DNA of 35,849 nucleotides, taken from IMG/VR virus record IMGVR_UViG_3300046722_000050, positions 1-35,849 of that record. One strand, 5' to 3'. Both the position numbers and the translations under genes were made by a program. This document shows positions 5,144 to 34,219 of the stretch, in pieces. Positions within the stretch are counted from its first letter, which is position 1; the number at the start of each line of letters is the position of its first letter. The notes under the pieces were generated by a model. That model was not told where the DNA came from. It saw only the letters and a list, made by a program, of their open reading frames with translations, and made no database searches. Source of the DNA: a virus.

Positions 5144-5169
5144 CAACTATCCTGAATTCAAGATAGTTG
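5144..5169. repeat. Palindrome P2
   Basis: CAACTATCCTGAA and TTCAAGATAGTTG form 13-nt arms around a GAATTC centre with one mismatch. A second small hairpin, GCCTCAGGATGAGGC (5122-5136), lies next to it, and the pair is repeated at 34190-34240 in reverse orientation. It is about 45 bases upstream of the 95-residue gene and about 20 bases 3' of the tRNA-like element. Confidence 0.8.
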
Positions 5170-6853: not shown

Positions 6854-7522
6854 CTACCAAGGTCTCAGTGATACCACGGCTGGCGGCAACATGCTGTGCA
6901 TGGGCTGCGCCAGATAGTAGGCGTGCATGTGGCGGCTCACTCGGGTGATCGTGTAGCGGTAGTGACTCCATAGGAGCTTATTGAAGCAGCGAATGTAGTC
7001 GCCATAGCTCACTACAGGCTCGTTGAAAAAGTCGCTGTATAGATGGCGGAACCATCCTATGCGTCTGAGCGCCGTGTCGCTCCAGATGAGATACTTGGGC
7101 GCTTTCGGTCGCTGCATGACCTTAGCTACGGGCCAGTCGCGCTCAAAGAAGCGCACGTTCATGGTAGGGAAGTCGAGCACTACCATGTCTGCATCTACCG
7201 TGCCCATGAGTTCCTTAGCGTCACCTATGCCTACGGTAGCTCGACCATCGAAGGCGCTGTGTAGCTGCCTAACACAGTCGGGGTCTATGTCGTAGATGGT
7301 GTGCGCGCTCGGTCTGAGCGTTTCCTGCACGATGGTAGCGAAGATGCCTACGCCACCGAAATACTCCACGACGCTAAGCCCTTGTGGGAAGTCGCGGATG
7401 ATGTGCATGAAGCAGGCCTCGTTCATCTTCGACGCCTCGCGGTCGATGTGGGCGAAGTGACCGCCAGCGCCACCCTCGACTAAGGGCAGAGGCCAGCGGC
7501 CACCTACAAGTAGCTCCCTCAC
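6854..7522 (-). CDS. Rossmann-fold SAM-dependent methyltransferase-like protein
   Basis: A 222-residue protein starting with GTG in a GTGA overlap with the upstream stop codon. The core has SAM motif I LSVVEYFGGVGIFATIV (about 49-65), then acidic strand-2 end TIYDIDPDCVRQL, GIGDAKELM, and motif-IV-like VDADMVVLDFPTMN. This matches a class I methyltransferase, with DFPT where DNA adenine enzymes have (D/N)PP(Y/F). It lacks the PC dipeptide of cytosine-C5 enzymes and has no target-recognition domain. The substrate is unknown; it might act on DNA, a modified base or a small molecule. The first 30 residues are less ordered, and an internal Met (MNEACFMHII) is an alternative start. Confidence 0.6.
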   Translation of the reverse strand: MRELLVGGRWPLPLVEGGAGGHFAHIDREASKMNEACFMHIIRDFPQGLSVVEYFGGVGIFATIVQETLRPSAHTIYDIDPDCVRQLHSAFDGRATVGIGDAKELMGTVDADMVVLDFPTMNVRFFERDWPVAKVMQRPKAPKYLIWSDTALRRIGWFRHLYSDFFNEPVVSYGDYIRCFNKLLWSHYRYTITRVSRHMHAYYLAQPMHSMLPPAVVSLRPW

Positions 7523-12988: not shown

Positions 12989-13920
12989 CGTGTTACTAGG
13001 CGGCGACATATCCCGTCGCCATTGGTGTTAACTACCATCGTTAATCGATGGCAGAGATGGTAGCAGCCTTAGGCGCTGTCGCCGTAGCTGCTACCGTGCT
13101 CTGCTATCTGAGCCTCCGCGTCATTCCGCGACTGACATCCTCAGCGATCCGAGTGGGCCTGCCCTTACGCGCTCCCTCCGCACCGTCGTGTGCCTCATTG
13201 GGTTTGCCTGTGAGCTACCTTTCATCCTGAGCGACTACGTGTCGCGACCTACGCTATACACCGCGTGTCGTCCCTCCCAGCGCCGTGTGGCGTTGAGGTT
13301 GTCCGTTAGTGGGCATCCCACTGTGCCGGATAGACTTGGCCCGTTTTATTAGCGTCGCGTAGCGGCGACGAGTGGCTCCCGACCGTTACCGATCGAGTTT
13401 GGTAAAGCGGCAATCACTATAGCCGCGTATGAACTACTCATCTGCACTACAGCGACCCCAACGACACATACGCCACGATTGACTGTCATCGTGGCGCGAT
13501 TCGTCGAGCGGCTGACCCTTGGGCTAACGCCGTTATTCACGGGGCGCTTTTTCAGGTTTGCTTCGGTTTCGTTCATCAGGCCATTACTAAAGCGCCTAAA
13601 CAAACAAAAGAAAACAACTATTTTTGCTGAGGGCAAAATACTTTGTAAAGCGCACGTCCTTAGAAAGTTACGCTATCACGATGGGATTCCATCGGGTTTT
13701 AGATAGGGTGGCGTCACGGACTCCATTCTACGCGGCCATGGTGAAAAGTTGCCTCTCGTTGATTTGCCCCATCGAGTGCCCGATAGAAGTGCCATCGAGG
13801 AGGATCAACCGTGGCCGCAGGCAACTTACGGCACACGCCCATCTGCACTATGAGCCAGCCGTTTGCATAGTGACGATGGACAGGCCGCAGCGCCCATCGT
13901 CGATGAGGCCCGCGCCCGCG
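12989..13920. other. About 0.9 kb without a convincing gene, rich in inverted repeats
   Basis: Minus-strand frames here are short or compositionally unconvincing (a 95-codon frame at 13349-13636 has no ribosome site). The sequence holds many perfect hairpins: GGCGAC/GTCGCC (about 13002-13020), CCATCG/CGATGG (about 13033-13049), GGTAGCAGC/GCTGCTACC (about 13057-13094), AGTGGG/CCCACT (about 13307-13321), CGTCGC/GCGACG (about 13354-13371) and CGCCACGAT/ATCGTGGCG (13471-13496). An A/T-rich patch at about 13590-13650 is the most AT-rich stretch of this region and could hold a promoter for the leftward small-gene operon or a replication or packaging site. Confidence 0.5.
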
Positions 13921-14445
13921 CTATCGGCCTATGGAGTCGGCTATCTGGTCGGCGTTGCGCTCAAGCTCACCAGCGGTCTCATTGGACAGCTCGATGGCCT
14001 TGTAGCGTGCGAGGATGCCCGCTATCAGCGTGCGCCTACTCTGCGTGAAGGATCGTGGCTGAGTGTCGCCGCGAGCCTTATGGCGTCGATCTCGCTCGTC
14101 CTCGGAGCACACGATGTGGAACAACTGAAGCTCGTCGTATGTGACCGACGATAGGAAATTGTGGCGGGTCAGCCTGTCGCCCTCAAAGGCCACCGTCGCC
14201 GTAGCTGGGCGCGTCTTGAGGAATTTGATGGCATCGCCATAGACCGCCATCGAGAGTTTGTCCGTGCCCGCGAAGATTTCATGGTCGTTGTAGAGGCCGA
14301 GCACATAGCGGTCGCGTGTGTAGGCCCGCCCGCGAAGCAGCCCGAATTTGAACTTCATATACTCCAGTCCAAGCCGCCTCAAGATGGAGCGCATGAGCGC
14401 TGTTTTACCTGTCGCTGGCTCGCCGATTATGCCAATTAGCTTCAT
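13921..14445 (-). CDS. P-loop kinase of the putative base-modification cassette
   Basis: A 174-residue P-loop NTPase starting MKLIGIIGEPATGKTALMRS; Walker A is GEPATGKT at residues 8-15. Further acidic and Arg motifs (VAFEGDRLTRHNFL; CSEDERDRRHKARGD as lid) look like a small nucleoside/nucleotide kinase. In thymidine-hypermodifying phages a P-loop kinase (5-hmdU DNA kinase) phosphorylates the hydroxymethyl group before amine addition; I infer the same role from the position directly after the transferase-type gene. It lacks the helical domain fused in the known kinases. Palindrome P3 and a GCCTC-containing hairpin lie just before its start. Confidence 0.65.
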   Translation of the reverse strand: MKLIGIIGEPATGKTALMRSILRRLGLEYMKFKFGLLRGRAYTRDRYVLGLYNDHEIFAGTDKLSMAVYGDAIKFLKTRPATATVAFEGDRLTRHNFLSSVTYDELQLFHIVCSEDERDRRHKARGDTQPRSFTQSRRTLIAGILARYKAIELSNETAGELERNADQIADSIGR

Positions 14446-14474
14446 ATTCGTAAGTGCCTCGGGATGAACGGTCC

Positions 14475-14506
14475 CGCCAATGAACTTGAATTCAAGTTAG
14501 TTGGCG
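14475..14506. repeat. Palindrome P3
   Basis: Arms CGCCAATGAACTTGAA and TTCAAGTTAGTTGGCG, 16 nt each, two mismatches, centred on GAATTC. As in P1, the stop codon of the upstream gene (GCC AAC TAA) lies inside one arm. A short run GAGGCACTTACGAATATG in the minus strand follows, and is shared with the leader after P2. Confidence 0.8.
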
Positions 14507-15414
14507 CTTCCATTGTGTGAGTTGGCCTCCTTTAGATGCTCGGGCTTGAAGGTTTCAGCGCGGTATGCCCACAGGACGCTCCAATCTACGCCCTCAGTCA
14601 CGTGTGCCTGTAGGTGCGCTATCTCGTCGTGCTGGCGGTTGATGTAGTAGCCCGCCCATCGTTTGCCTAGGTGGTATTTTTTGTAGGCACACAGGGTAGT
14701 CTCCATGTTCCACATGTTATTCGCTGGGTCGAGCGCCTTGAGGTCGCGCAGGCCCGCGTCCAGCGACACCTGTAGCATCTTCATGTCGGTCTGTTTGATC
14801 TGATGACCGTCCTCATGGTTGCTTAGATCGGGCCTGCCTATCGCCAGCGCTAGTCCGTTGCGGCATGACTGAGCCTCACGCACGTTCATCGTGGGCGGTT
14901 CCATCGGGAAGCCCGTGACCACATGGACAGCCTCGGTGTAAAGCCACAGGCCGAAACGTCCCATCTGAAACCACTGTGAGGCGTCCTTGCTGACTACGTC
15001 ATAGGTGGCGAGCGGGTCGCGTGGCACTTCTCTCGATCGCATCCACATCTCCTGGCTGAGCGGGCGCACCGCGTCCGCGTAGGAGCGTAGCATCTGAACC
15101 CACTGATTGCGGGAGCGCACCCATCGGCGGTCAGTCTGGAACAAGACCTTTTCGCGGTTGAGTTTCCACCATCGCGCCGCCCTATCGAAGTCAACGTTTT
15201 CCCAGTCCGGAAACTCGTTGTAGATGTAGAACGTGGTCGCGCCGCAGTAACACGTTGAGTAGATGTAAGCCAGCCAGTAGCGTTGCTCCGTGTTAAGCTC
15301 GTAGCGTTCGCAGATGTAACGAAGCATTGAGTAGCTAGGGTCAACGTCACCTATGGCCCGACTGTAGGTGTGGTAGTCCACATAGCTCATCTTGTCGCTG
15401 TAACTAGCCCACAT
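14497..15414 (-). CDS. Alpha-glutamyl/putrescinyl-thymine pyrophosphorylase-type protein (amino acid:DNA transferase family)
   Basis: A 305-residue protein. The start MWASYSDKMSYVDYHTYSRA overlaps the end of the amidotransferase gene by 11 bp and follows AGGGACG; an upstream in-frame extension of 34 codons is unlikely. The all-helical, Trp/Tyr-rich pattern PSYSMLRYICERYELNTEQR, YWLAYIYSTCYCGATTFYIY, EFPDWENVDFDRAARWWKLN, DRRWVRSRNQW is what I know from the aGPT-Pplase/ADDT clade, whose members replace the phosphorylated hydroxymethyl of thymine in DNA with an amine or amino acid (putrescine, glutamate, serine or glycine in known phages). Recognised from sequence pattern only. Here the nucleophile is unknown. 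It lies between a kinase and a glutamine amidotransferase. Confidence 0.65.
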   Translation of the reverse strand: MWASYSDKMSYVDYHTYSRAIGDVDPSYSMLRYICERYELNTEQRYWLAYIYSTCYCGATTFYIYNEFPDWENVDFDRAARWWKLNREKVLFQTDRRWVRSRNQWVQMLRSYADAVRPLSQEMWMRSREVPRDPLATYDVVSKDASQWFQMGRFGLWLYTEAVHVVTGFPMEPPTMNVREAQSCRNGLALAIGRPDLSNHEDGHQIKQTDMKMLQVSLDAGLRDLKALDPANNMWNMETTLCAYKKYHLGKRWAGYYINRQHDEIAHLQAHVTEGVDWSVLWAYRAETFKPEHLKEANSHNGSAN

Positions 15415-16042
15415 GGTAGGTCGTCCCTGCTTCGATGGACTTAGGCAGCTTGAAGCCTGAGCGCCTGAATATGTCCTGTGTTGAGCCGATGTAGTGGGCG
15501 CTGGCCTCGCGCACATGGTAGAGCGGGCGCTGGCGATTGCGGAGCGCCAGTAGCTCGCCGTGGTAGAGCATGACGCCCGCGAAGCTAAACGTGCCTAGCC
15601 TAACCCACTGCTCCCAGTCCTCGCCGTCTAACACCTTGCGCACGAAGATTTCTCCATCGTTATCCGTCTCGGGCTTGAAGCCGAACTCCTTGCCCCACTG
15701 CTCCTTAGTGGTCATACGGATGACGCCATTGAACGCCATAGCTACGTCACCTATGACGATGGGCTGGTTAGCGTCATCGTCGTGCCAGTCGCCGCTGGTC
15801 GAGTAACGGCAATGCGCGATGAGGCTTAGATGGCGGCCCACATACTCGAGAGCGAGCGCGGCCAGATACTCTCGCGCCTGCTCGCGAATTAGGAACTTGT
15901 CGCACCCGAGCGCGCCATCCGCATGCACGTGCGCGACTCCGAACGAGTGCAGCCCGCGTATCTTACTCGCATCGAAAAGCGCAAGCAGCCGCGCAGCCGC
16001 TCGCTCGCCGCCCTTGCCTGAGTAACCTATGACCGCGCACAT
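15404..16042 (-). CDS. Stand-alone class II glutamine amidotransferase
   Basis: A 212-residue Ntn-hydrolase-type GATase: Met removal would expose Cys2 of MCAVIGYSGKGG as the nucleophile. Other family marks are HCRYSTSGD (Arg79), ANQP (92-94), FNGVIRM (Asn105-Gly106), TDNDGE (127-131) and LRNRQRPLY. It liberates ammonia from glutamine. Unlike asparagine synthetase or GlmS, no synthetase domain is fused, so the ammonia must go to a partner, most likely a cassette neighbour that aminates a base or activates an amino acid. It overlaps the GNAT gene by 16 bp and the transferase gene by 11 bp. CG-rich palindromic patches inside it (about 15838-15930) resemble the R repeat weakly. Confidence 0.8.
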   Translation of the reverse strand: MCAVIGYSGKGGERAAARLLALFDASKIRGLHSFGVAHVHADGALGCDKFLIREQAREYLAALALEYVGRHLSLIAHCRYSTSGDWHDDDANQPIVIGDVAMAFNGVIRMTTKEQWGKEFGFKPETDNDGEIFVRKVLDGEDWEQWVRLGTFSFAGVMLYHGELLALRNRQRPLYHVREASAHYIGSTQDIFRRSGFKLPKSIEAGTTYHVG

Positions 16043-16665
16043 AAAAGGAAGTCATAATCATGGTCGGGTTGCCAGTTGCGTGCAAGGATTTCATGGTGCA
16101 ATTCTTCACCGCTCATGGCGGTAACACGACTGGTAACACCGCGAGCGCCGATGGGCGTCTTGTCGGTCGGGAACTTAGCCGCCTGATGCGGGAGTGGCGA
16201 GTCGATCTGGATCTCGCCGCCCTCACAGAAGCCCCACACCTGATGCCCTAGCGACCAGTGTAGGCGTAGCCCTAGGTAGCTGCCTGCCTTTGACTTGATG
16301 CGGGCGCAGCCTAGGAACGCACAGTGTTGTAACATGGCCCGCGACAGTTGGAGCGCGTAGCCTTGGCGACGATGGGACGGTGTCGTGTAGGCGAGCGTCC
16401 AGTTGCAGTAGGGTTCCCATATGTTCTTTTTGCGCCGCCCGATGTGGATGGTGCCAAAGCTCAGTGGGCCTTCTGGCGAGTCCAAGGCGAACACAGCCGC
16501 CTTGCGAAACAACTCCACTCCAATGTCGCCTAGGCAGTCATAGCTGTCCTTAGGATAGCCGCCTCTACGCTCGCGTAATGCACGCGCCATCGTCTCGCAC
16601 TCGGATGGGAGCAGGAGCTCGCGGACTCTCGCGTGCTCGATCGAGTTGCATGTGTGCACGCTCAT
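16027..16665 (-). CDS. GNAT-family N-acetyltransferase of the cassette
   Basis: A 212-residue protein; I start it at MSVHTCNSIEHARVREL because a longer frame (GTG) runs through the R3 repeat. GNAT motif A is LAYTTPSHRRQGYALQLSRA with the acetyl-CoA loop RRQGYA (99-104); IKSKAGSYLGLRLHWSLGH is motif B-like. It probably acylates an amine, such as an aminated base made by the neighbours; acetyltransferases also occur in described thymidine-hypermodification clusters. The C-terminus overlaps the amidotransferase start by 16 bp. No ribosome site is seen in front of the ATG. Confidence 0.75.
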   Translation of the reverse strand: MSVHTCNSIEHARVRELLLPSECETMARALRERRGGYPKDSYDCLGDIGVELFRKAAVFALDSPEGPLSFGTIHIGRRKKNIWEPYCNWTLAYTTPSHRRQGYALQLSRAMLQHCAFLGCARIKSKAGSYLGLRLHWSLGHQVWGFCEGGEIQIDSPLPHQAAKFPTDKTPIGARGVTSRVTAMSGEELHHEILARNWQPDHDYDFLLCARS

Positions 16666-16810
16666 GGGCGAGCGCGTCTGTTTCCTAAACGCGAGAGCGC
16701 GTAGAGCGCGAATATCGCGAGCGTGAGTAACGCGGATGCATACGCCCACTCGAATACGCGAGTGACGTGCACGCGAGCGAGTCGCTCGAGCGCGTTAGGA
16801 ATTAGCTCCC
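16629..16810. repeat. CG-rich palindromic repeat R3 at the TET/GNAT junction
   Basis: Two blocks: 16629-16668 (GCTCGATCGAG, GCATGTGTGCACGC, ATGGG), nearly identical to the right end of R1 at 30751-30781, and 16757-16810 (in minus orientation GCTAATTCCTAACGCGCTCG), matching R2 at 8560-8580. The last codons of the dioxygenase gene (Ala-Asn-Ser-stop) and the first codons of the GNAT gene are encoded inside the two blocks. The 129-bp gap between the stop and start codons is thus filled by repeat sequence. Confidence 0.55.
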
Positions 16811-17880
16811 TTGGATACATGGCTCTCGATGGGAGGACGTCTGAGCGCCTTAGCGCGGGCGAGTTCTTCATCGGCGCTGCCACAGCGCTGCATCTTCTCG
16901 CGATAGTAGAACACCAGCGATACCCGCTCAAACATCCCATGGTTGCCTTTCATGGGCGTGTTACCGTGCCACTCATGCACGTCCGCACAGAGGACACAGC
17001 CAGTCCTCATGTCTAACGCCACGCGATACTTAGGGAACACGAAGTAGCAGCCCTCGTAGCGGCCACGCCTGAGGCACGACATGACGCCGAAGCCCTCCTT
17101 CAAGTCGCCCACGTCCTTATGCACCGCCGTCTGGAAGTTGCGGTTGACGGTCACTGTGGTGAAGCAGGTGTCCGCGATGTAGAAGTCGGCGCTGGTGGCG
17201 CGGATTAGATCAGACTGCGCTAGGTAGCGGTCAGGGACTAAGGCCGCGAACTCCCTGTCTATCCGCTGGATGAAGGGCATGACAGCCGCAAAGCGCCTCG
17301 GGTGCGCTAGGTTGTAGGCAGTCAGGCGACAGTAGGGAAAGCGCGGATTCCTATCGAAGAAGCCCACTATGCCGCTGTTGACTAGCTTGGCGACGTTCGT
17401 GTTACTCAGTGTGCCATCGTGTTTGATAGCCTGCGCTCTCGTCGGGCTGACCAGCTTGATGCCTATGCCGCCTCGCTCCTTGGCGATCTTCACTAGCTCC
17501 TCCTCTGAGTTGATCTGCCCTGCCGCGTAGCCACGGTTGCCAGTGGGGTTGGCCGCGTCCTTCCATACAGGGAAGGCCGTTAGGCAGTCGGCCTCCTCTA
17601 TGACGTTCTGGCGAAACCTGCACAGCAACGAGCCATCGGGCTTGTAAATGTCCACGTCATCGGTGTGGAGCGTATCGTAGGCATCCTCGCCAAGTAGATG
17701 ACCAGCAAGAGCGTCGGTCTGCTCGTCGTTGAGCGCGTTGCGTTTCAATCGCACGACCTTGGGCGGTGCCTCAGTCTTGTGGCGATAGTCGAGTTTAAGC
17801 GACGGTGGTAGCTCGGTGCTCCGTGGTATGCTTAGCGTGGCCATTGGTGCGTTTGGTTTGTAGTTGGCTGAATGTAGCAT
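16795..17880 (-). CDS. TET/JBP-type 2-oxoglutarate/Fe(II) dioxygenase
   Basis: A 361-residue protein. The C-terminal part carries the TET/JBP signature: RNFQTAVHKDVGDLKEGFGV (HxD at H254/D256), GRYEGCYFVFPKYRVALDMR, GCVLCADVHEWHGNTP (distal His H302 or H305) and ERVSLVFYYREKM (2-oxoglutarate-binding Arg319). This is close to trypanosome JBP, which hydroxylates the methyl of thymine in DNA, and to TET, which oxidises 5-methylcytosine. The N-terminal about 200 residues include SDLIRATSADFYIADTCF, typical of phage members. The start may be the second Met (MATLSIPR, residue 13). It overlaps the Gp88-like gene by 50-86 bp and ends in repeat R3. I infer it supplies 5-hydroxymethyl-pyrimidine for the kinase/transferase pair downstream. 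Confidence 0.85.
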   Translation of the reverse strand: MLHSANYKPNAPMATLSIPRSTELPPSLKLDYRHKTEAPPKVVRLKRNALNDEQTDALAGHLLGEDAYDTLHTDDVDIYKPDGSLLCRFRQNVIEEADCLTAFPVWKDAANPTGNRGYAAGQINSEEELVKIAKERGGIGIKLVSPTRAQAIKHDGTLSNTNVAKLVNSGIVGFFDRNPRFPYCRLTAYNLAHPRRFAAVMPFIQRIDREFAALVPDRYLAQSDLIRATSADFYIADTCFTTVTVNRNFQTAVHKDVGDLKEGFGVMSCLRRGRYEGCYFVFPKYRVALDMRTGCVLCADVHEWHGNTPMKGNHGMFERVSLVFYYREKMQRCGSADEELARAKALRRPPIESHVSKGANS

Positions 17881-18550
17881 CGCCCTGCTTTTTGCGAAAC
17901 ATCGGGATGCGGTTAGCGACTAAGCCTATGTGCTTGGGCGCGTAGATGGCGAACAGGTCTGAGGCTTCGCGGTTCTCATAGCCGGCAGCGATAGCAGCCT
18001 CCTTAGTCGGGAACACGTCCGCGTGGCGGTCATGTGCGCGATCTACGAGCGCGTCCTCCTTGCCGCCCAGTGAGTATATCCAGTCGAAGTTGGCGGGCGG
18101 GTCAGGCTCGACCAGTCGCTTGAACTTACTGACCTCCTTAGTGTAGGCGTAGAAGGTCGCCCATGGCGAGCGCCTGATGATGCGTAGCCATGCGCTCAGA
18201 TAGGCGTCGCTGAAGAAGTCGCCGCTGTCGTGTATGCGCACGTGTCGCCCACGATAGCGCGGGTCGCGTAGCTCGCACGTCATGCGTGTCTCCCACCATG
18301 GCAGATGATCGAGCACCATGAGCAGGTTGCGCTCATGGGCCGCTCTCACCTCGGGTAGTAGGAAGTTACCGCTCCTCGCATAGCACAGCTGGGCGCACAC
18401 TCCGGCGTTAGGGCAGACATTGAAGTTTCGGCCGTCGCTCAGTCGAAGCGCCCATGCTGGTAGCGTCCAGTTGTAAGCGCCATCGCGCTTGAGCAGGCTA
18501 TTCTGTGTGAGCAGCCACTTGGGCAGTAGCTTTTCCATTGCGCTTACCAT
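17795..18550 (-). CDS. Gp88-like Cys-cluster protein
   Basis: A 251-residue protein (start Met1 or MEKLLPKWLL, residue 5). It has the Cys cluster C46-x5-C52-x3-C56 (NVCPNAGVCAQLCYARSGN), VRIHDSGDFFSDAYLSAWLR (105-124) and FYAYTKEVSKF, then YSLGGKEDALVDRAHDRHAD and IGLVANRI. This is the pattern of a phage family often annotated Gp88 after mycobacteriophage genes; its biochemistry is unknown to me. The Cys triad recalls a metal or Fe-S site, and HDSGDF may be catalytic or metal-binding. Between ParB and the dioxygenase, it is a candidate modification enzyme or specificity factor. The last 35 residues are low complexity and overlap the dioxygenase gene. Confidence 0.65.
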   Translation of the reverse strand: MVSAMEKLLPKWLLTQNSLLKRDGAYNWTLPAWALRLSDGRNFNVCPNAGVCAQLCYARSGNFLLPEVRAAHERNLLMVLDHLPWWETRMTCELRDPRYRGRHVRIHDSGDFFSDAYLSAWLRIIRRSPWATFYAYTKEVSKFKRLVEPDPPANFDWIYSLGGKEDALVDRAHDRHADVFPTKEAAIAAGYENREASDLFAIYAPKHIGLVANRIPMFRKKQGDATFSQLQTKRTNGHAKHTTEHRATTVA

Positions 18551-19337
18551 AGCACTCCGCTACCGCTTTAACGACTGTGTCGGTGATGTTAGTGATCTCC
18601 CAGTCTTCGCCTAGGACGCGCACTTGCTCCATGAACTCGGGCAGAGTCTCCACTGTGAGGAACAGCTGCACCATCCGTATGTGAGCGGGTATGGTCTCGT
18701 CGCCCTCGCCAGCGATAGTCGTCTCTGCATCGGTGTCAGGCGTCATCTTAGTCAGCATGGCCTCTAGCTCCTTAGCTGAGAAGCCAGTGAGCGGTAGCTC
18801 ATAGCCTTGGCCATCCAACTCGGTGAGGATTTCAGATAGCGCTGGCAAATCCCAGTCGCCACCGTGTTTGTTGGCCGCGATCATGGCCGCGTTCTCGGTG
18901 GCCTCGTCCCACTTGACCTCACGATAGACGAAGCGTTCGCCGCGATACAGCACGACGCCCTCCGCGACGGTGCCGCGTGGCGTGGGCTGAGGGAAGCGCC
19001 TGAGTATCTCGACTGGCAGGTTGCCGAGGATCTTCACGCGCTGGTGGCCGCCTACGAGGTGGCCTGTGTTGAGGTTCACGACGAGTCCACTGAGGTCGCC
19101 ATACGCGGCCATAGCTTTCTTCAGCGCCTCCAGTTGTTCGTCAGTGATTTTGCGCGGGTTGCGCGGATTGGCCGAAAACTGCGAAAGCCGTATTTCGGGG
19201 TCTGATTGACGTTTCGGAGGTGTCTCCGCGTTGCGAGGATGCCCTGTAGCACGTTTGTTTGGGGCGTCCGCTACCTTGACCCTACCCGATTTGGCGGACT
19301 CGTTCTCGGGCATCGTCGTTGCTTTTGGTGGTTTCAT
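18498..19337 (-). CDS. ParB/Srx-domain protein of the modification cassette
   Basis: A 279-residue protein. Residues about 46-200 are a ParB-like domain of the type found beside DNA methylases: IRLSQFSANPRNPRKITDEQ, LEALKKAMAAYGDLSGLVVN, GHLVGGHQRVKIL with the box GGHQR (96-100), then KWDEATENAAMIAANKHGGD. ParB/Srx folds bind or hydrolyse nucleotides, so it may be a helper NTPase or site-selection factor in base modification. The ATG is in an ATGA overlap with the tail-fibre gene. The first 45 or so residues are disordered, Lys/Pro/Asn-rich, and are encoded by repeat copy E. The C-terminal part (FLTVETLPEFMEQVRVL) overlaps the Gp88-like gene. Confidence 0.8.
   Translation of the reverse strand: MKPPKATTMPENESAKSGRVKVADAPNKRATGHPRNAETPPKRQSDPEIRLSQFSANPRNPRKITDEQLEALKKAMAAYGDLSGLVVNLNTGHLVGGHQRVKILGNLPVEILRRFPQPTPRGTVAEGVVLYRGERFVYREVKWDEATENAAMIAANKHGGDWDLPALSEILTELDGQGYELPLTGFSAKELEAMLTKMTPDTDAETTIAGEGDETIPAHIRMVQLFLTVETLPEFMEQVRVLGEDWEITNITDTVVKAVAECYGKRNGKATAQVAAHTE
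19191..19322 (-). repeat. Dispersed repeat, copy E, inside the ParB-like gene
   Basis: In minus orientation GACGATGCCCGAGAACGAG at the left, then CAGGGCATCCTCGCAACGCG, then GGAGACACCTCCG and ATCAGACCCCGAAAT at the right. The blocks match copies C and D in order and spacing. It encodes about residues 6-49 of the ParB-like protein. The GGAGACACC in it is the ribosome-site sequence seen before seven other genes, so this part once looked like a spacer plus start region. Confidence 0.65.
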
Positions 19338-21121
19338 GGTGTGAGGATGGAGATGTAGCCACCGTCCGGCCCGAGCACTTGATTGGCTGGGCTATAGTGG
19401 CCTGAGTTGTTGACGTTATGGACAATCGCTATCTGCGCGCCAGAGGCGGCTTGGCAATCCAGTGTGACGTTACCTGTGACCGCGTTAGTGGCGTTCAGAG
19501 CGGTCATGATCAGCCCTAGCTCGACGGCTACGAGGCCTTTGCCGTTGAAGCCTACCACGATGCCGCCCGTGGTAGCGGGCGCATTGCTGTTGCCGAAGAA
19601 CGCCTGTGTGTCGCCTCTCACGCCAGTCGCGTTGCCGCAGATGTAGGAGTAGGTGCCACCACCGCCCGTGTAAGAGCCTGCCACAATCCAGACGCCATAG
19701 GTGAAGCAACCAGTCCATGACACGCGATTCCATCCATCCGGACTGTTGGGTGCTATGGCTATGCTCCCAGCTGGGCCTGCCGAGATACCTATCTGACAGC
19801 CGTTGGCCGCGACCACGGGGTTCACGTTCAAGTTACCATTGGAGCTACCGTAGCCCACTTGGAAGCCTACGACCGCCATGTTCTCGATGGTCGAGTTACC
19901 GTAACAGGCGACGCCGTTGCCTACCTGTGCCGTGGTAGATCGCAGGCCGAAGTTCTTGATGAGGCCGATGCCAGTGCGGCAGTCGAACATGGGCGTGCTC
20001 GCGCTGAGCGTGCAGGCGTATTGCGATGGGAACAACACGACCTTTGTGTTGCCTAGGGCCGCTATGGTGGCGGGTGGCGCGACCGCTTGCATGATCATCC
20101 TGACCACGATGTTCTGGCCAGCGCGGATTGAGGTGACGTAGCCACAGCTTTCGAGTAGGGCGTGCGGCGCATTCCATAGGTAGATAACATCGTTGACCGC
20201 GATTCCCGATGTGTCCGCCATGTTGAGGGTCACGCTCATGTTCGGGAGCGTGCCAGCGACCGTCACGTTGCCCGTGACCGCCCGCGAGATTAGATCGTGG
20301 CCGATGATTTGTATCTGGCCCGCGTTCGGGTGGTCAATCACGATCGGTGCGCTCTGATTGAAGTTACCTGACCACACGTGCACTGTGACCTTCCTGTTAG
20401 TCGGGATGACAAGATCGGCCACGCTCGCGAGGGCCGCTTCGATGGTCGGGAACAGGACGTTAGGATCGCTGATGCCCGGATATGTCTGTGGCACATAGAA
20501 GTCCAAGTCACGCGGCACTACCTTGACGCCGATGGTAAGGAAGTCCTCACTCGGGTCTTCAATGATCTCCACATGGTAGCCCGCGACAAGGCGCTTGAAG
20601 TTGAGGACGTTGCCCGCTGCATCCTTGTAAACGCCAGCGCCTACCGTGTCAGGCCCGATGTTAGAGCCGATGACGTTCTCGCTAGGCCCGATCTGCACGA
20701 CAAGGTTTGCCGTTGGTATGCGGTCCACTATGAGCTTGATCTTGAAGGTCTGGACTGTGGGCGCGGCTGGGTCAACTGGGATGGGCGCGTCTGTGAAGCA
20801 GTTAGCGACTGAGTATAGGCGGTCAGCCTCAGTGCCTATGTGCGCCAAGATGCCTACCTCTTTCATCAGGAACGCATGAGGCGCTTGCTGGCTAGTGAAC
20901 GAGCCTTCGACTAAGAGCGTGCCTTGGCCGTAGTCGCGCTTAGCTGAGATGGTAACGTCCATCTCATGAGCTATGAGGGCGGTGAGCGGCCATAGGTCGC
21001 TGGGTTGGGCGGCTGCTCCGCTGCCCACTGTGATCTTAGTGATCGTGAGTGTCGCGCCGTTCTGTGCGCGCCCGAGCATCGAGCGTCCAGCGTCGGTGAA
21101 TTCTTGTTTAGATAGGCTCAT
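19334..21121 (-). CDS. Tail fibre protein (DUF3751-like N-terminus, beta-helix shaft)
   Basis: A 595-residue fibre. The N-terminal about 150 residues (MSLSKQEFTDAGRSMLGRAQ, ITKITVGSG, HAFLMKEVGILAHIG) match the phage tail-collar fibre module that joins a fibre to the baseplate (gpH type). Residues about 230-590 are Gly/Asn/Val-rich with repeated short strands (VTVHVWSGNFNQSAP, IENMAVVGFQVGYGSSNG), typical of a right-handed beta-helix, ending in GPDGGYISILTP. It probably binds the host surface. The stop overlaps the ParB-like gene's start, linking host-range and modification genes in one transcript. Confidence 0.85.
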   Translation of the reverse strand: MSLSKQEFTDAGRSMLGRAQNGATLTITKITVGSGAAAQPSDLWPLTALIAHEMDVTISAKRDYGQGTLLVEGSFTSQQAPHAFLMKEVGILAHIGTEADRLYSVANCFTDAPIPVDPAAPTVQTFKIKLIVDRIPTANLVVQIGPSENVIGSNIGPDTVGAGVYKDAAGNVLNFKRLVAGYHVEIIEDPSEDFLTIGVKVVPRDLDFYVPQTYPGISDPNVLFPTIEAALASVADLVIPTNRKVTVHVWSGNFNQSAPIVIDHPNAGQIQIIGHDLISRAVTGNVTVAGTLPNMSVTLNMADTSGIAVNDVIYLWNAPHALLESCGYVTSIRAGQNIVVRMIMQAVAPPATIAALGNTKVVLFPSQYACTLSASTPMFDCRTGIGLIKNFGLRSTTAQVGNGVACYGNSTIENMAVVGFQVGYGSSNGNLNVNPVVAANGCQIGISAGPAGSIAIAPNSPDGWNRVSWTGCFTYGVWIVAGSYTGGGGTYSYICGNATGVRGDTQAFFGNSNAPATTGGIVVGFNGKGLVAVELGLIMTALNATNAVTGNVTLDCQAASGAQIAIVHNVNNSGHYSPANQVLGPDGGYISILTP

Positions 21122-25300: not shown

Positions 25301-25356
25301 ATGTTTCTCACCTCCTTTGGTCTTGGGTTGTAAGTGGTTGGCGACGAGTGACTTTA

Positions 25357-25380
25357 AGCTATCTTGAATTCAAGTTAGTT
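25357..25380. repeat. Palindrome P4
   Basis: CTATCTTGAA and TTCAAGTTAG around the GAATTC centre, with weaker outer bases (A/T, G/T), a shorter copy of the family. It begins 7 bases after the amidase stop codon and precedes the 57-residue membrane gene, so it separates the amidase message from the J operon. Confidence 0.7.
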
Positions 25381-25386
25381 GAGAGG

Positions 25387-29385: not shown

Positions 29386-29411
29386 CAACTAACATGAAAT
29401 CAGGATAGTTG
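29386..29411. repeat. Palindrome P5 over the gpV ribosome site
   Basis: CAACTAACATGAA and ATCAGGATAGTTG, the most degenerate family member (three mismatches). In the minus transcript its 3' arm GTTAGTTG runs straight into GAGCACGCTAATGG, so pairing of the arm could hide the gpV ribosome site. It abuts repeat copy B on the other side. Confidence 0.7.
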
Positions 29412-34189: not shown

Positions 34190-34219
34190 CCCAACTAACT
34201 TGAATTCAAGATAGTTGGG
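34190..34219. repeat. Palindrome P6
   Basis: CCCAACTAACTTGAA and TTCAAGATAGTTGGG, 15-nt arms with one mismatch, the longest good copy. It adjoins GCCTCAGGTTGAGGC (34224-34238), the same hairpin as near P2 but in reversed order, so the P2 and P6 modules are inverted copies of each other. Confidence 0.85.

Follow-up and report, generated by a model that had tools for sequence, protein, structure and literature searches.

A predicted glutamine-fed route to aminated thymine in a recurrent viral TET/JBP cassette

The DNA considered here, IMG/VR virus record IMGVR_UViG_3300046722_000050, was analysed over its whole length of 35,849 bp (the window) and carries a cassette of seven minus-strand open reading frames (ORFs) that extends from a ParB-like gene (19337) to a kinase gene (13921). 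We interpret the cassette, at a probability of about 0.48, as a pathway that acts after replication on thymine in phage DNA and turns it into an aminated, optionally acylated derivative; its central reaction is plausibly new. The broader assignment to pyrimidine hypermodification is made with high confidence. It is the best reading because a TET/JBP oxygenase and a member of the amino acid:DNA transferase family (ADDT) are recognised by both profile and fold, and because the cassette recurs in dozens of viral contigs. An earlier sequence-only reading had named seven genes on one strand at 13921-19337; all are present, with profile matches far above chance, the GNAT match being weak. Its claim of a DNA-hypermodification cassette stands for both key enzymes and for the syntenic set shared among distinct viral contigs, and needs correcting on the place of GP88 and on a repeat.

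The 361-residue oxygenase scores 81 bits against PF12851 (cut-off 34.9). When its AlphaFold model (pLDDT 90.6) was compared with the PDB, the best 26 matches were all TET-type enzymes (CcTet, TET2, NgTet1 and CMD1; E 1e-11 to 1.4e-8), with ABH2 and FTO ranking behind them. Profile and fold thus agree on the TET/JBP identity proposed from the sequence. The HxD...H iron triad (H254, D256 and H305) and R319, the arginine that binds 2-oxoglutarate, are invariant in 112/112 homologues. A search of viral contigs with the single TET sequence found no relatives; profile searches did recover them.

The 305-residue transferase likewise scores 81 bits, against a PF18724 cut-off of 26.2, and has a confident structure model (pLDDT 95.3). 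The only PDB matches of this model at E<=0.001 are chains of 8z2n (E 6.5e-4, probability 1.00, TM 0.58-0.61), the 5-phosphomethyl-deoxyuridine (5-PmdU) glycinyltransferase gp46/PUGT of Pseudomonas phage PaMx11, so that its proposed ADDT/aGPT-PPlase identity is upheld by fold as well as by profile. Sequence searches of the PDB returned nothing with small TET and ADDT alignments and nothing significant with a large ADDT alignment; the fold comparison succeeded.

Between these two genes lies a free-standing class II glutamine amidotransferase (GATase). Its profile score of 24.9 bits is slightly under the GATase_6 cut-off of 27, and profile searches give PurF amidophosphoribosyltransferases as its best solved relatives, with GlmS also found. 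C2, H77, R79, N105, G106 and D129 are invariant in 84/84 homologues. To place the gene in context, TET, ADDT and GATase profiles were used to gather loci from viral contigs, and the ADDT sequences were collapsed at 90% identity into 68 clusters, 51 of them well flanked on both sides. GATase is found within 4 kb of ADDT in 56 of the 68 clusters, in none of 35 TET loci that lack ADDT and in 3 of 80 GP88 loci; because of the first two of these counts, GATase belongs with ADDT rather than with TET. It is highly probable that the two proteins work together.

In the proposed pathway, the TET/JBP enzyme is predicted, from its fold and active site, to hydroxylate the 5-methyl group of thymine in DNA, its presumed substrate, giving 5-hydroxymethyl-dU. 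The P-loop kinase, assigned to its family by profile, would then phosphorylate the hydroxymethyl group. GATase, which is paired with ADDT and has an intact glutaminase site, is the predicted ammonia donor: it would hydrolyse glutamine and hand the ammonia to ADDT. The structure model of ADDT is consistent with a predicted exchange of (pyro)phosphate on 5-(pyro)phosphomethyl-dU for an amine, and in the reading we favour, the ADDT subgroup found in the window uses ammonia in place of an amino acid, which would yield 5-aminomethyl-dU directly. This chemistry would mirror that of PurF, in which ammonia derived from a class II GATase displaces pyrophosphate from an activated sugar. Where a GNAT protein is present it could acylate the new amine, and protection of the phage DNA would be the presumed outcome. 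The scheme gives no step to the ParB-like and GP88 proteins. The odds of ammonia-fed direct amination seem to us even. More tentatively, GATase and ADDT may constitute a glutamine-dependent DNA aminating enzyme, widespread in uncultured viruses, that reaches 5-aminomethyl-dU in one step (before acylation by GNAT), can follow TET as well as a dUMP hydroxymethylase, and represents a second route independent of glycine transfer followed by a flavin lyase.

That known route may be the one taken by lineages without GATase, in which ADDT would transfer glycine and a flavin-dependent lyase would release the same amine. Of the 12 clusters that lack GATase, 7 have a flavin-enzyme gene no more than 4 kb from ADDT; of the 56 that have GATase, 0 do. 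One copy, in locus L057, matches the solved flavin-dependent lyases 8z2o and 8z79 over its full length (E=2e-4), and another, in L065, is a DAO-family flavoprotein. The flavin lyase reportedly (Lee et al.; Wen et al.) turns the glycine adduct into 5-aminomethyl-dU, with acetyltransferases acting downstream. The simplest common reading, which is suggestive, is that GATase with ADDT and a glycine-specific ADDT with flavin lyase are alternative routes to the same amine.

Several observations weigh against this picture. The GATase label needs just two changes on the ADDT tree, and the mutual exclusivity of GATase and the flavin enzyme therefore amounts to one or two evolutionary contrasts; its Fisher p-value overstates it, and an independent-pairs test has too few contrasts to reach significance. 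Five ADDT clusters have neither GATase nor the flavin-enzyme gene, and two loci from bacterial bins (L272 and L273) combine ADDT with the kinase and have neither GATase nor TET. GATases can also serve amidoligases, which are found in some related cassettes and in phages tf and Shrooms. Finally, the loci were retrieved by similarity to the window proteins, some of them through GATase itself, and all counts are enriched for this configuration.

The amidoligases bear on an alternative in which the thymine chemistry upstream is alike and the group that ADDT attaches is an amino acid, be it glycine, serine, glutamate or some other, as happens in M6, ViI, PaMx11 and SP10; GATase would then alter the side chain by amidation or by amide removal or exchange, and GNAT would acylate the free amine. 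The nearest solved relative of ADDT does transfer glycine, the Ackermannviridae have ADDT without a close GATase relative, and amidoligase-like genes stand beside GATase in L048, L058, L155, L006, L088 and L166 and in tf-like and Arthrobacter phages. We nevertheless consider this alternative unlikely. No ATP-dependent ligase that could power amidation is recognised in the window cassette, most GATase cassettes are without amidoligase-like genes, and the proximity of GATase to ADDT is almost universal, whatever other genes are present.

Direct amination leaves the question of which base is modified. The sequence-only reading left the choice between thymine and 5-methylcytosine (5mC) open, and the comparative evidence favours thymine, which we consider the probable substrate because of the ADDT fold match, the rarity of C5-methyltransferases, and the thymidylate-synthase (TS)-family and HMUDK_hel genes of TET-less contigs. 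A C5-methyltransferase (PF00145) occurs in 1 of 28 contigs with both TET (confirmed by profile) and ADDT, compared with 2 of 4 other TET contigs; the single case, contig G023, is a weak partial match, and none was found in the window or in the L004 contig. In L006, L157, L166 and L165, whose contigs have GATase and ADDT but no TET, a TS-family gene occurs together with HMUDK_hel, although in the fourth such contig (G041) the TS gene was looked for, and found, only after HMUDK_hel had been seen there. The 28 TET+ADDT contigs have neither gene. Of the TS genes, three were aligned; they resemble the SPO1 dUMP hydroxymethylase most and share its Asn where the T4 dCMP hydroxymethylase has Asp, a position that we take to tell the two activities apart. 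The window has neither PF00303 nor PF02511, and TET is the proposed substitute for a dUMP hydroxymethylase; the two seem to substitute for each other ahead of one and the same GATase-ADDT core. In M6-type thymidine hypermodification, too, a TS-family gene is described as co-located with an ADDT-type gene, there called aG/PT-PPlase1 (PMC9599517). On the other side of the balance, the TS/HMUDK contigs L006, L157 and L166 form one clade, and the window is a 35.8-kb fragment, so that 5mC may come from the host or from a C5-methyltransferase encoded outside it.

Were 5mC the substrate, a methyltransferase encoded off the fragment or by the host would supply it, TET would oxidise it to 5-hydroxymethylcytosine, and the kinase, ADDT and GATase would produce 5-aminomethyl- or aminoacyl-cytosine. 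The TET fold does match 5mC oxygenases, phage TETs are reported to act on 5mC (Burke et al. 2021), Melnitz phages have an HhaI-like methylase beside a distant TET, and there is the weak PF00145 match in G023. Against these stand the near absence of C5-methyltransferases from TET+ADDT contigs, the dUMP-hydroxymethylase-like and 5-hmdU-kinase-family genes of the TET-less GATase-ADDT contigs, and the 5-phosphomethyl-dU substrate of the nearest ADDT structure; we judge a cytosine pathway improbable. A class-I-methyltransferase-like ORF of the window (6854-7522), outside the cassette, was considered as support for cytosine and set aside, as its match to PF02475 (TRM5/TYW2) is only weak.

In ADDT-free cassettes, a protein family that we label 'IPTKR' adjoins TET (L003 8868-9626, L025, L033, L068, L148 and L151); two of these cassettes also have a C5-methyltransferase, and ORFs of similar appearance lie in tandem in L006 (11475-15361). 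The 'IPTKR' proteins are possibly glycosyltransferases, and possibly mark a cytosine branch of viral TET cassettes. In Pelagibacter phage HTVC112P (L002 6973-9195), ParB and TET are followed by an FkbM-type methyltransferase, a gene order that suggests methylation of the TET product in pelagiphages.

Looking across the loci, the order ParB-TET-GATase-(GNAT)-ADDT-kinase recurs in most of the 68 distinct ADDT clusters. Among the 51 well-flanked loci, TET is present in 43, a ParB-like gene no farther than 4 kb from ADDT in 45 (mostly directly before TET), GATase in 43, the kinase in 48 and GNATs, of several families, in at least 30. Where a locus has both genes, GATase adjoins or overlaps ADDT in roughly half of the cases; in most of the remainder a single gene of about 380 bp separates them, which, where read, encodes a short GNAT-like protein (PHROG acetyltransferase match, plus Pfam matches of a member that the same profile retrieved). 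Such regularity bears on the idea that separate morons, or nucleotide or cell-wall genes, lie side by side by chance and form no single pathway. GP88 and ParB-like genes are indeed common elsewhere in phages, and on the ADDT tree GNAT has about 10 changes (TET has 6). Yet order and proximity are kept across dozens of distinct contigs, active sites are invariant, and cultured actinophages retain the order TET-ADDT-kinase; we regard chance assembly as highly improbable.

Two sets of loci extend the range of arrangements. L268-L273 hold GATase-ADDT or kinase-ADDT cassettes without TET, on contigs binned as Phocaeicola, Prevotella, WOR-3, Selenomonadaceae and Prevotellaceae that are probably phage or prophage. 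An amidoligase-like protein is encoded near GATase and ADDT in L048 (9526-10401), L058, L155 (9589-10506), L006 (8912-9850), L166 (10312-11265) and L271 (8529-9911); the copies scanned have no Pfam or PHROG match, and that of L271 runs on into an extra C-terminal region.

The remaining genes of the cassette contribute unequally to the argument. The kinase scores 31.4 bits against PF18751 (cut-off 27), and its Walker A residues G8, G13 and K14 are invariant in 85/85 homologues. The same Pfam family, Ploopntkinase3, adjoins TET and ADDT in Gordonia phage LittleMunchkin, and from sequence the protein is predicted to be a 5-hydroxymethyl-pyrimidine DNA kinase. HMUDK_hel (PF18723), the experimentally defined 5-hmdU DNA kinase family, was not found in the window or in any of the 28 TET+ADDT contigs, and in loci such as L111, L129 and L141 a second small P-loop protein stands in for the kinase. 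The GNAT of the window is a weak match (17.5 bits, PF00583 cut-off 20.7), and its 52% identical orthologue in L005 is just over the cut-off at 20.9 bits. Both lie between TET and GATase and differ from the short GNAT-like protein of other loci. Acylation of the installed amine by GNAT has, in our estimate, an equal chance of being right or wrong.

GP88 had been listed among the cassette genes, but a dedicated step for it does not survive comparison: it is a widespread phage gene, and of 80 GP88 loci none has ADDT and 2 have TET. Its place in the operon is probably that of a general phage gene. A tailoring role was rejected on the same counts and keeps a low weight through L125 (10803-12089), where a GP88 domain and the cassette kinase are naturally fused. 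In L132 and L135, GP88 lies upstream of ParB genes and adjoins the cassette, and the protein carries an invariant cysteine motif, CPNAG.C...CYA.

Table 1. Coordinates of the cassette genes and spacer in the window.
Feature	Position	Strand	Basis
ParB-like protein, 279 aa, first cassette gene	18498..19337	-	phrog_620 E=6.8e-29; no Pfam match
GP88-family protein, 251 aa	17795..18550	-	PF17338 E=1.6e-54, cut-off passed
TET/JBP 2OG-Fe(II) oxygenase, 361 aa	16795..17880	-	PF12851 E=7e-23, cut-off passed
Intergenic spacer TET/GNAT, 129 bp, no repeat	16666..16794	-	repeat scans
GNAT acetyltransferase-like protein, 212 aa from ATG 16665	16027..16665	-	PF00583 E=0.005, weak
Class II glutamine amidotransferase (GATase), free-standing, 212 aa, Cys2	15404..16042	-	GATase_6 E=2.2e-5; phrog_14519 E=2e-9
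ADDT (amino acid:DNA transferase family, aGPT-PPlase2), 305 aa	14497..15414	-	PF18724 E=1.4e-22, cut-off passed
P-loop kinase, Ploopntkinase3 family, 174 aa	13921..14445	-	PF18751 E=1.7e-7, cut-off passed

The genes are tightly packed (Table 1). Four of the six junctions overlap (by 53, 86, 16 and 11 nt, the last being that of GATase with the ADDT start), as the sequence-only reading had it for most of them, and the other two leave 129 and 51 bp between the genes. The same reading took the longer gap for a 129-bp repeat. It is an unrepeated spacer: no direct or inverted repeat of at least 60 bp exists within 13900-19400, and TRF finds there only two weak tandems, of 22 and 31 bp. For GNAT, the better-placed start is ATG 16665, preferred over GTG 16749, and the ADDT start is better placed at 15414.

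The record is classed as linear and is probably a genome fragment. Contractile-tail and baseplate-type genes occupy its right side, and ERF, a helicase and small genes its left, with the minus strand predominating; among the translated ORFs of the window, none was recognised as a terminase, capsid or DNA polymerase gene. A reading as a defence system was dropped: PADLOC gave nothing beyond ParB domains that match a methyltransferase model. Six copies of a 26-bp palindrome, CAACTANCTTGAATTCAAGNTAGTTG, are present with 0-3 mismatches (1624-1649, 5144-5169, 14478-14503, 25356-25381, 29386-29411 and 34192-34217), where chance would give none. The copies apparently lie at or between gene ends, and one overlaps the ADDT stop, right before the kinase gene. 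The palindrome was not found in any of the fetched loci and looks like an operator, a stoperator or a shared terminator-type site.

The sequence-only reading had proposed a new aminated, possibly acylated pyrimidine. Amination and acylation are supported by the pairing of GATase with ADDT and by the recurrent GNATs, but the predicted 5-aminomethyl-dU is already a known phage base, and the novelty would be the route. A literature search found no report of a GATase-ADDT pair within its coverage, which did not extend to Iyer 2013, Lee 2021/22, Burke 2021 and Wen 2024. If the interpretation is true, phages can aminate DNA compactly with glutamine as the nitrogen source, by a system present in many uncultured viral contigs, and a large group of TET enzymes from viruses can be given a base (thymine) and a product. 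It would also predict which phage DNAs resist restriction. A primary amine gives duplex DNA a useful chemical handle, and the TET-kinase-ADDT-GATase set would then be a portable toolkit for placing one.

The idea that hydroxymethyl pyrimidines made by phage TETs are starting points for complex bases is reportedly that of Iyer et al. 2013. Among the closest known systems are those for thymidine hypermodification in M6, ViI and PaMx11 (Lee et al. 2018 and 2021/22; Wen et al. 2024), which resemble the window cassette in the ADDT family (with the fold of PaMx11 PUGT), the DNA kinase and the GNATs, and resemble its sister cassettes and TET-less relatives in a flavin-dependent-lyase-like gene and in the TS-family hydroxymethylase and HMUDK_hel, respectively. 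They differ in using a dUMP hydroxymethylase, whereas the window cassette would hydroxymethylate within DNA by TET; in HMUDK rather than Ploopntkinase3; and in a flavin lyase, pyridoxal phosphate enzyme or radical SAM enzyme where the window has a class II GATase with ADDT. Phage TET cassettes for cytosine hypermodification, as reported by Burke et al. 2021, and Melnitz-type pairs share the TET/JBP family and the phage setting, but they join TET to a C5-methyltransferase, a gene that is missing from nearly all TET+ADDT contigs. A homologous class II GATase stands beside an amidoligase in Pseudomonas phage tf and Arthrobacter phage Shrooms; ADDT, TET and the cassette kinase were not detected in the stretches of these genomes that were read. 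A class II GATase also brings nitrogen onto a modified base of phage DNA in phage 9g, where Gat-QueC, with its class II GATase domain, is required together with DpdA for dG+ in DNA (PMC6884629, PMC5567051). Gat-QueC differs in acting on preQ0/deazaguanine, in its fused QueC domain and in its unrelated transferase chemistry. The actinophages Rhodococcus Tonitrus and Gordonia LittleMunchkin share the gene order ParB, TET, ADDT and kinase, and the Tonitrus set of TET, ADDT and kinase has been annotated as a thymidine hypermodification system (PMC11955845). Unlike the window, they have no detected GATase and no annotated GNAT, and their ADDTs fall outside the GATase-linked clades. Thus the core of TET, ADDT and kinase is already known from cultured actinophages, and the new part is the module of GATase and, where present, GNAT.

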